64,000 bases of DNA from contig NZ_AZEE01000029.1 of the NCBI RefSeq assembly GCF_001434895.1, forward strand, positions 287,267 through 351,266, in the 5' to 3' direction. The notes beneath the pieces were generated by a model. That model saw nothing but the letters and a program-made list of their open reading frames with translations. It did no database searches and was not told the DNA's origin. This stretch comes from Secundilactobacillus odoratitofui DSM 19909 = JCM 15043. GTDB taxonomy: Bacteria; Bacillota; Bacilli; Lactobacillales; Lactobacillaceae. This document shows positions 12,547-26,240 of the stretch, one piece after another. Both the position numbers and the translations under genes were made by a program. Numbering within the stretch: the stretch's first letter is position 1; every line of letters starts with the position of its first letter.

Positions 12547-12566
12547 ATCATTATCTCTTGATGTCT

Positions 12567-12650
12567 ACACTTTCCTTCGCAAGCATTAACTTAACAGGTT
12601 CAAAGGGACCAGATTGCTCTATCTCAGCCGTAATGGCGCCCCTAGTGTTA
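12567..12650 (-). promoter_or_regulatory. TPP riboswitch (THI element)
   Basis: The minus strand reads CTAGGGGCGCC, then GGCTGAGATAG, then CCCTTTGAACCTG, then TAATGCTTGCGAAGGAAAGTG. These are the conserved blocks of the thiamine pyrophosphate aptamer in the correct order and spacing. It controls cytX and thiW through the terminator at 12501-12546. Binding of TPP would switch off uptake of thiamine precursors. Confidence 0.97.
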
Positions 12651-12688
12651 TGAAATTTTCTCTTCCAGTCTAACATAATTCACGTTGC

Positions 12689-14084: not shown

Positions 14085-14201
14085 ATGGAAAAAACAGACC
14101 TTGCGAGTGCCTATCGTCGACTGAAAAGTCCAAGTTTAAAAACGCGTAAACGCGCCATGAAAGTCATTCGTGACGCTAAACGACAGGCAACTAAGAAATA
14201 A
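14085..14201 (+). CDS. 38-residue basic protein, possible metal homeostasis protein
   Basis: Small frame directly after rpsN with an AGGAGG ribosome binding site at good spacing. The product begins MEKTDLASAYRRLKSPS and is very basic (KTRKRAMKVIRDAKRQATKK), probably a single helix that may contact RNA or ribosomes. It is cotranscribed with the zinc-free S14 and followed by a strong terminator. I recall short proteins of this type being labelled putative metal homeostasis protein in Firmicutes, but I cannot verify that here. Function unknown; the company of a zinc-starvation ribosomal protein is the best hint. Confidence 0.8.
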   Translation: MEKTDLASAYRRLKSPSLKTRKRAMKVIRDAKRQATKK

Positions 14202-14213
14202 CTACGGTTAAAC

Positions 14214-14251
14214 GCCACGTATCCTTTTGAGTCGGATGCGTGGCTTTTTTT
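14214..14251 (+). terminator. Intrinsic terminator after rpsN operon
   Basis: GCCACGTATCC pairs with GGATGCGTGGC (one G-T wobble), followed by seven T residues starting at 14245. Confidence 0.92.
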
Positions 14252-14274
14252 GTCCCACTGTAATCTGCCACTGC

Positions 14275-14448
14275 GGGTTAGCAGCCTTTTCCAGCTGCTG
14301 TGGGACCAGCTGCAGCCACGAACCCCCCGTGTCTTTCGCTTCACTAATGAGCCCCACCAAGTTCGTGGGTCTCATTAGCGTCCAGTACCACTAAACGCTA
14401 AAGCGTTAAGTGGTACTTTTCACTGCAGCTGGAAAAACCCACTAACCC
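14275..14448 (+). repeat. Large structured intergenic element, copy A
   Basis: A nested stem-loop element. Outer stem: 14275-14298 with 14425-14448 (20 of 24 pairs). Middle stem: CTAATGAG 14344-14351 with CTCATTAG 14371-14378. Third stem: 14384-14399 with 14402-14417 (15 of 16 pairs, apex CGCTAAAGCG). Conserved single-strand blocks shared with copy B are CTGTGGGACCAG (14298-14309), CGCTTC, GAGCC, GTCTCA/CGTCCAGT and TTTTCACTGC. CCACGAAC (14316-14323) could also pair with GTTCGTGG (14361-14368) as a pseudoknot. The stems differ in sequence from copy B but remain complementary, as expected for RNA or for a hairpin mobile element. Confidence 0.8.
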
Positions 14449-14659
14449 TCCGTTCTTGTAACATACCAGAAACGTGCACTCAATGAATTTCATAACTTTA
14501 GATGCTCTCATAAAAGTCATTTCAAGTAGCCATCGTTGACATTAAGTACCAGCTTATGAATTACGACTCGTATTTTTTGCCGTAACTTAAACAAAACCGT
14601 TGCTTCCACAGCTAAAGACCAGGTATTCGCCAACAAATATCGCTACGTTAGCCGTAGCG
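14449..14659. other. Spacer between the two structured elements
   Basis: About 210 bases without a gene. It contains a short hairpin CGCTACG-TTAGC-CGTAGCG around 14641-14658 just before copy B. No promoter or reading frame with a ribosome binding site is evident. Confidence 0.4.
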
Positions 14660-14827
14660 CCGCCAGGTGTTTTTTGACTGGTGGCAGTGATAAGTGGCAG
14701 TTGGCGCTTTAGCGCTTACTGTCCACTGGACGGTTCTGAGACTTGCCCCTTAGGCTCAGAACCGAAGCGTAAGACGCGAAGCGGCTGAAACTGGTCCCAC
14801 AGCCACTAGTCAAAAAACACCTGGCGG
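14660..14827 (-). repeat. Large structured intergenic element, copy B (inverted)
   Basis: Homologous to copy A but on the opposite strand. Outer stem: 14660-14685 with 14802-14827 (25 of 26 pairs). Middle stem: GGTTCTGAG 14732-14740 with CTCAGAACC 14755-14763, perfect. Third stem: 14693-14708 with 14711-14727 (one bulge, two mismatches; same CGCTAAAGCG apex on the minus strand). CTGTGGGACCAG is at 14791-14802 (minus). Compared with copy A, stem sequences are replaced by other complementary sequences while loop blocks are conserved. Confidence 0.8.
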
Positions 14828-14853
14828 CCGAAGGCGGCAGCATCTTTCATAAG

Positions 14854-14890
14854 TAAAAAGCCGTTATTCTCATCCCAGAGAACAACGGCC
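14854..14890 (-). terminator. Intrinsic terminator after cfa
   Basis: On the minus strand GCCGTTGTTCTC pairs with GAGAATAACGGC (one mismatch) followed by a T-run (complement of 14855-14859). It is 17 bases past the cfa stop. Confidence 0.85.
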
Positions 14891-25988: not shown

Positions 25989-26072
25989 CATTAATTGATA
26001 AGCTAAACAAGATTTCATACGAGTCTGTATACACCAAAAAGCATACACCTATGGTACGAAATAATTGCACTT

Positions 26073-26218
26073 TCTTCTCCCATCCAGACTTTAACTGTCG
26101 GTCCCAGACTCGCACTGGGTCAACCACGAAAACGTGGGTCACGGACTTCAGTCTTAACACGATCAAGCGTTCAATCTAACTGTCACCGTCGGTCGGGAAT
26201 TTCACCCTGCCCCGAAGA
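26073..26218 (-). promoter_or_regulatory. FMN riboswitch (RFN element)
   Basis: The minus strand contains the RFN blocks in order: CTTCGGGGCAGGGTG, AAATTCCCGACCGACGGT, AGTCCGTGACCC, GGTTGACCCAGTG, GAGTCTGGGACCGACAGTTA and AGTCTGGATGGGAGAAG. It precedes ribD and, with the terminator at 25959-25988, should repress the operon when FMN is plentiful. No known roseoflavin-resistance type disruption is apparent. Confidence 0.97.
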
Positions 26219-26240
26219 AATCTATTCAGTTTTCAAAAAC

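Follow-up and report, generated by a model that had tools for sequence, protein, structure and literature searches.

A family of paired structured repeats in Secundilactobacillus odoratitofui and other Lactobacillaceae, with one unit between rpsN and a cfa-like gene

In the window (i.e., the whole stretch of 64,000 nt analysed here), rpsN (Ribosomal_S14) and a cfa-like gene (CMAS) enclose two related structured sequences that face each other, termed elements A and B. Together with their spacer they form a paired unit that is bordered by gene terminators at both sides. The features are as follows.

14213..14251, plus strand: terminator hairpin with T-run for the rpsN transcript, immediately to the left of the unit (identified by eye; absent from the terminator scan list)
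about 14265..14840, no strand: whole paired unit, outer edges CTGCCACT... and ...GGCGGCAG (set by eye against other S. odoratitofui units)
14265..14462, minus strand: element A, class 1, leader at about 14462-14448 and fold at 14448-14275 (the selected strand is minus, judged from the family-wide G-T/A-C asymmetry)
14284..14440, plus strand: match of A to the first covariance model on the motif strand (147.8 bits)
14463..14648, no strand: spacer from A to B, without a promoter-like site (comparison by eye)
14649..14840, plus strand: element B, class 2, leader AGCCGTAGCGCC, fold at 14660-14828 and tail end GGCGGCAG (the selected strand is plus)
14670..14816, minus strand: match of B to the first covariance model on the motif strand (141.2 bits)
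14850..14890, minus strand: terminator of the cfa-like gene, immediately to the right of the unit (terminator scan; 13-pair stem, T-tail)

Two covariance models were used: the first was built from 42 S. odoratitofui copies, whereas the second drew on several genera and models the opposite strand. A and B belong to the 42 training sequences, and thus their bit scores are high by construction. A search of the window with the first model (E <= 0.01) returned A, B, and an opposite-strand echo of A, and nothing further. The sequence-only reading had described two inverted copies with common loop blocks and stems that were replaced yet stayed complementary, and A and B bear this out; it had placed them at 14275-14827, which is indeed structured, although the unit reaches further. 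Relative to shuffled sequences, RNA folding gave z-scores of -7.8 and -8.5 for the two copies on the strand used by that reading, and -8.0 (A, minus) and -9.0 (B, plus) on the opposite strand; the plus strand of B folded as DNA gave a z-score of -11.1. That the elements are not simple terminators also held: no intrinsic terminator is built on the stem of A or B, no T-run directly follows either on its own strand, and the two weak, chance-level sites that the terminator scan placed at 14641-14671 use neither as a stem. Among S. odoratitofui units compared by eye, no stretch of the spacers is conserved across subfamilies, and the only promoter-like site of the window scan lies outside the paired unit. 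No Rfam 15 family matched the unit at its gathering score (three matches at E <= 5 were all far under theirs), and the loci of four relatives gave no Rfam match at E <= 0.1. Elsewhere in the window, Rfam located ordinary FMN and TPP riboswitches (26068-26223 and 12555-12653, respectively, both minus strand). Right after rpsN lies a 38-aa reading frame (14085-14201, plus strand; MEKTDLASAYRR...) with no Pfam match, look-alikes of which occur in several relatives between rpsN and the rpsN terminator.

The rpsN-cfa junction of seven related species (L171-L176, L178) contains a different gene and no match to the first model, so that S. odoratitofui has both lost this gene and gained the unit. The L171 copy of the gene encodes 270 aa without a Pfam match, and a PP2C identity was dropped. 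Inspection for empty sites, as had been suggested, thus found relatives that lack the unit, but a clean empty site was rejected because these relatives carry the extra gene there. In another relative (L179, genome G010), a unit with TGTCACTTGTGTCCAGCG... ends and a long hairpin adjoins the cfa-like gene and matches neither model; several contigs of this genome stop inside TGTCACTTGTGTCCAGCG-ended units, as if the copies were near identical.

Besides its long outer stem (P1) and closing helix, the fold has two inner arms and a hairpin that stands apart. The earlier description of three paired stems was right as to the pairing but incomplete, as six helices make up the model, among them an RGC/GCY helix that covaries and the closing helix, an almost invariant GGAC/GUCC pairing. 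RNAalifold predicted 55 pairs, with changes on both sides in 39. Compared with shuffled controls, 95.0% vs 75.5% of the cells were paired, 465 vs 142.8±10.1 cells were altered on both sides, and the covariation score was 0.509 vs 0.148±0.007 (0.05-0.12 for slid structures); a measure of "further pair types" showed no excess (85 vs 86.0), such that covariation exceeded the controls in four of five measures. The covariation supports the proposal of a selected RNA or single-stranded DNA structure, and the similarity extends beyond low-complexity palindromes to complex, non-palindromic loops that are conserved across genera. Wholesale replacement of the hypervariable P1 at each copying was rejected by its graded identity in Companilactobacillus nantensis, which averaged 0.70 in the 29 copy pairs whose cores were >=0.92 identical and was 0.83-1.0 where core identity reached >=0.968; intermediates with mismatches were also present (12 of 49 copies fell outside the core regex). 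Runs of ten N in or beside long stems of single elements were seen in L018 and L041, and may mark places where the assembly broke at a strong palindrome, or else masking.

A and B belong to a repeat family whose multibranched members are ~190 nt long. The motif GCTGTGGGACCAG (<=1 mismatch) occurs 65 times in the S. odoratitofui genome vs 5 times for the reversed pattern, which places the similarity of the two elements beyond chance. The first model found at least 119 copies in this genome (150 of 707 candidates scored), kept from 124 matches after removal of four opposite-strand echoes and one match at E 8e-4. These copies comprise 35 pairs and 49 solos, and the second model found a partner at 11 of the 49 solo loci. 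All 46 pairs recognised by the two models share one inverted arrangement, i.e., the inverted doublet is the repeated unit. The gap inside the 35 pairs spans 102-363 nt, and the two elements of a unit are spaced about 0.06-0.4 kb apart family-wide. Most parsed pairs (27/29) combine a class 1 element (CACTACCACT-like outer end) with a class 2 element (GCCGCCTTCGGC-like outer end), and the remaining two contain class 2 twice. The same pair rule describes 44 of 45 neighbouring matches within 600 nt at named loci of other genera (loci that may overlap) and 15 of 17 neighbouring matches in C. nantensis loci, with same-direction neighbours within 600 nt in L238, L396, and L411 as exceptions. C. nantensis itself carries at least 150 copies, all 150 scored of 528 candidates being matches.

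Homologs were thus abundant in this genome and beyond once a covariance model had been built, as the sequence-only reading had proposed. The first model was positive in 14 of 60 relatives (S. odoratitofui counted in) and in at least 55 of 301 Lactobacillaceae genomes, representing 11 of 40 genera (E <= 1e-5; with at most ten candidates scored per genome, misses are likely). Hosts among the matches listed for a DNA pattern were Levilactobacillus, Lactiplantibacillus, Companilactobacillus, Furfurilactobacillus, and Secundilactobacillus. Phylum-wide, the second model matched S. odoratitofui alone among 398 genomes (E <= 1e-5; 7 candidates scored per genome), and four pattern-matching contigs labelled as other phyla, taken as negative controls, gave no match to it. 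Among the genomes sampled, the family is restricted to Lactobacillaceae. By blastn, a method insensitive for so variable a family, no match was found for the window unit or for the whole Lactiplantibacillus mudanjiangensis unit against plasmids, or for the L. mudanjiangensis element against plasmids and named phages. In viral contigs, one of two patterns found one contig: this uncultured viral contig has a genuine copy (L434:229-395; 125 bits) adjoining terminase, portal, and Clp-protease genes.

Mismatches within the stems indicate which strand is under selection. On the strand used by the sequence-only reading, non-Watson-Crick cells were A-C in 71 cases, G-U in 21, and other in 45, and A-C was in the majority in 30 columns vs 9 for G-U; an A-C excess on this strand is an excess of wobble pairs when read on the other. 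Outer stems read on the other strand contained 89 G-T vs 20 A-C in S. odoratitofui (56 vs 9 copies, p=2e-9) and 53 vs 19 in Levilactobacillus (25 vs 7 copies, p=0.002), p-values that serve as guides only since the copies are related. There was no clear asymmetry in other Secundilactobacillus (12 vs 7), Lactiplantibacillus (16 vs 16 and 12 vs 10), or Companilactobacillus (7 vs 9 for first-model matches and 14 vs 7 in C. nantensis). These counts were anchored on model-match ends, and copies with <10 of 15 Watson-Crick pairs were left out (used: 111/119 in S. odoratitofui and 48/55 in Levilactobacillus, the latter 55 being selected matches with the weakest excluded; left out: 2/20 and 2/13 in Lactiplantibacillus, and 1/44 in C. 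nantensis under a separate cut). An earlier count with a wide regex and 26-nt arms, which we judged badly anchored, had given 101 G-T and 155 A-C in S. odoratitofui (35 vs 35 copies) and a G-T lean in four other groups (19/8, 76/41, 37/23, and 18/6); re-anchoring on model-match ends yielded the strong S. odoratitofui asymmetry, and the lean was lost in two of the other four groups. In S. odoratitofui and Levilactobacillus, selection therefore acts, at either end of the unit, on the strand that has its 3' end facing outward. This is the strand opposite to the one first read, and both folded strands consequently read outward.

Such asymmetry fits a structured RNA, which had been one of the initial suggestions, but promoters are not enriched upstream of the folded strands (22 of 118 stretches, or 18.6%, with 9+ of 12 vs 17.1% in shuffled sequence). 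The outward strand would thus stem from read-through of the far gene or be exposed as single-stranded DNA. In the former case each element would be a barrier to antisense transcription into its neighbour, and in the latter it would be a recognition signal.

In S. odoratitofui, units tend to lie between facing terminators, and copies between a T-run and an A-run. T5+ occurs at the outer flank of 59% of the 70 paired and 55% of the 49 solo copies, compared with 27% and 12%, respectively, on the inner side, and A5+ occurs at the inner flank of 53% of solos (of the 49 counted here, 11 have a partner by the second model). By crude ORF calls, 31 of 84 units lie between convergent genes and 4 between divergent genes. 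Elements also recur at the same junctions in several species of the genus: five species have one at the 3' end of a gene for a large ABC2-type membrane protein (with a 75-nt partial match in a sixth), three at that of a Pyr_redox_2 (AhpF-like) gene, and two adjoining a response regulator. The outer stems at recurring junctions differ between species by paired changes. Identity was 0.785 at the same junction (15 comparisons) vs 0.736 between junctions within species (17), and orthology of same-junction elements is only modestly supported. This recurrence looks like a kept host feature more than a free-moving element. On contig C5 of S. odoratitofui, at about 90-680 kb (L414-L433), 20 sampled 20-kb stretches (400 kb) contained no match to the first model, where the genome mean would give about 25 copies for the 590-kb region. 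Because the GC skew of C5 turns from + to - near 350 kb (dnaA lies on C24), the match-free region is probably located around the replication terminus. Avoidance of the terminus as a general rule was rejected, as 57 matches lie all along the main contig of a near-complete Levilactobacillus genome.

That the family travels as a non-autonomous mobile element is supported by L. mudanjiangensis, where terminal repeats and target duplications were found. In this species, terminal inverted repeats bound a ~540-bp element that contains the pair, and similarity passes from the folds to the outer inverted repeat in at least several of 14 aligned units. The terminal repeat CTAAAGGTTGAAAG has 207 matches (<=2 mismatches) vs 29 for the reversed pattern. 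Exact target duplications of 7-9 bp flank 16 of 29 end-to-end spans, some of which are nested false spans, vs a shuffled mean of ~0.6 (lengths of 7, 8, and 9 bp: 8, 6, and 2 vs 0.32, 0.25, and 0.06), and seven further spans have a one-mismatch duplication. The idea of a hairpin mobile element moved in trans is thus supported for the family, though not by the copy in the window or by its genome: the 29 of 35 S. odoratitofui pairs that could be parsed have no target duplication (best flank repeat 4.24 vs 4.16±0.17 shuffled) and no outer terminal repeat, and the window pair, which is not among these 29, has neither by eye. Candidates for an autonomous copy were rejected in both species. In S. odoratitofui, two facing-solo pairs with an equal spacing of 5.35 kb turned out to be loci unrelated to each other whose genes look ordinary, and in L. 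mudanjiangensis a 3.7-kb candidate parent among the matches listed was two separate units. In genome G013, a 272-aa Fic-family gene (L157:1312-2130) lies between two similar elements, as if inserted between copies.

Among known systems, MITEs with strong folds (bcr1, EFAR, Efa-1, RUP, BOX, and SPRITE) are likewise intergenic with stable secondary structure; terminal inverted repeats and target duplications are shared with them in L. mudanjiangensis only, unlike in S. odoratitofui. Here, in contrast to these MITEs, each unit has two large outward folds, which differ in class in 27 of 29 parsed S. odoratitofui pairs, and the loops are conserved over several genera. E. faecalis has Efa-1, a double hairpin of 163 nt (PMC2267715), EFAR is listed among enterococcal MITEs (PMC3733652), and SPRITE is terminator-like (PMC10969869). 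Efa-1/EFAR, which we guess to be the same repeat, are nearest by size and host group. Rfam structured RNAs resemble the family in their covarying multibranched structure, although, as noted, none matches. We found no description of the family among the open-licence papers listed, and a very dense structured repeat family of Lactobacillaceae appears to be undescribed in the sources searched.

Taken together, we think it likely that the unit in the window is one copy of a mobile repeat family that is non-autonomous, high in copy number, and built of inverted pairs of outward-selected folds. Mechanistically, a transposase would copy the unit in trans, and the unit would enter T-run/A-run sites between facing terminators. 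Its outward strand would fold, as RNA or as single-stranded DNA, and the fold would be a recognised feature or keep the insertion harmless, while the Secundilactobacillus copies may have lost their target duplications yet kept their pairing. As for the function of the fold, a recognition or mobilisation signal is our tentative first choice, arrest of antisense read-through into the neighbouring gene is a close second, and some other activity is somewhat less likely. It is also conceivable, if somewhat unlikely, that the family represents a new mobile-element class, in which either end would encode, or make accessible, a large structured nucleic acid that reads outward past the border into the flanking terminator; the fold would then be the RNA or single-stranded DNA part of a trans-acting system spread through several Lactobacillaceae genera.

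Several alternatives to such a mobile family were weighed. The elements could instead be insulators kept by the host that stop antisense transcripts running past the facing terminator before they reach the neighbour's 3' end, with mobility as their origin only. The transcripts in question would carry the outward strand, and the position of units between facing terminators, the pairing preserved despite altered letters where different species share a gene junction, and the absence of any need for an own promoter all agree with this. The position between facing terminators also suits the paired insulator that the sequence-only reading had offered as a possibility. However, no T-run follows the fold, and solos between tandem genes show no orientation bias (13 same vs 16 opposite, by crude ORF calls and with 11 of the 49 "solos" having a partner), so we regard pure insulation as unlikely. 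For BIMEs, gyrase or nucleoid-protein sites between convergent genes have been proposed. A chromosome-organising DNA site of this type would suit the excess of convergent over divergent settings and the lack of matches in the 400 kb sampled around the likely S. odoratitofui terminus; the spread all along the Levilactobacillus contig and a strand asymmetry unexpected for a double-stranded site make it improbable.

TnpB RNAs have their 3' end at the outer border, as does the strand selected here. The units could be remnants of TnpB guide RNAs, or doublets of the REPIN type moved by a RAYT/Y1 transposase. By analogy, REPINs work most like this family, as PMC3116915 describes them as inverted doublets and singlets with compensatory stem changes, and the family likewise has high copy number and is extragenic, like REPINs and BIMEs. 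REPINs/BIMEs are, however, built of short REP palindromes, whereas members of this family are ~190-nt multibranched folds, and REPINs have a cognate RAYT. The S. odoratitofui genome had no match to the Y1 transposase (PF01797, RAYT) or to TnpB (PF01385), although of 41 genomes searched 18 match the former and 17 the latter, and we consider either origin very improbable. Finally, chance or low-complexity palindromes without selection, for which only a palindromic P1 that folds on both strands could speak, are refuted by the excess of double-changed cells and the complex loops conserved across genera, leaving them a negligible probability.

The family provides a large natural set of compensatory substitutions in a food-relevant bacterial family and a test case for whether a host function preserves mobile repeats between convergent genes. 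It is also a lead to a transposition partner.
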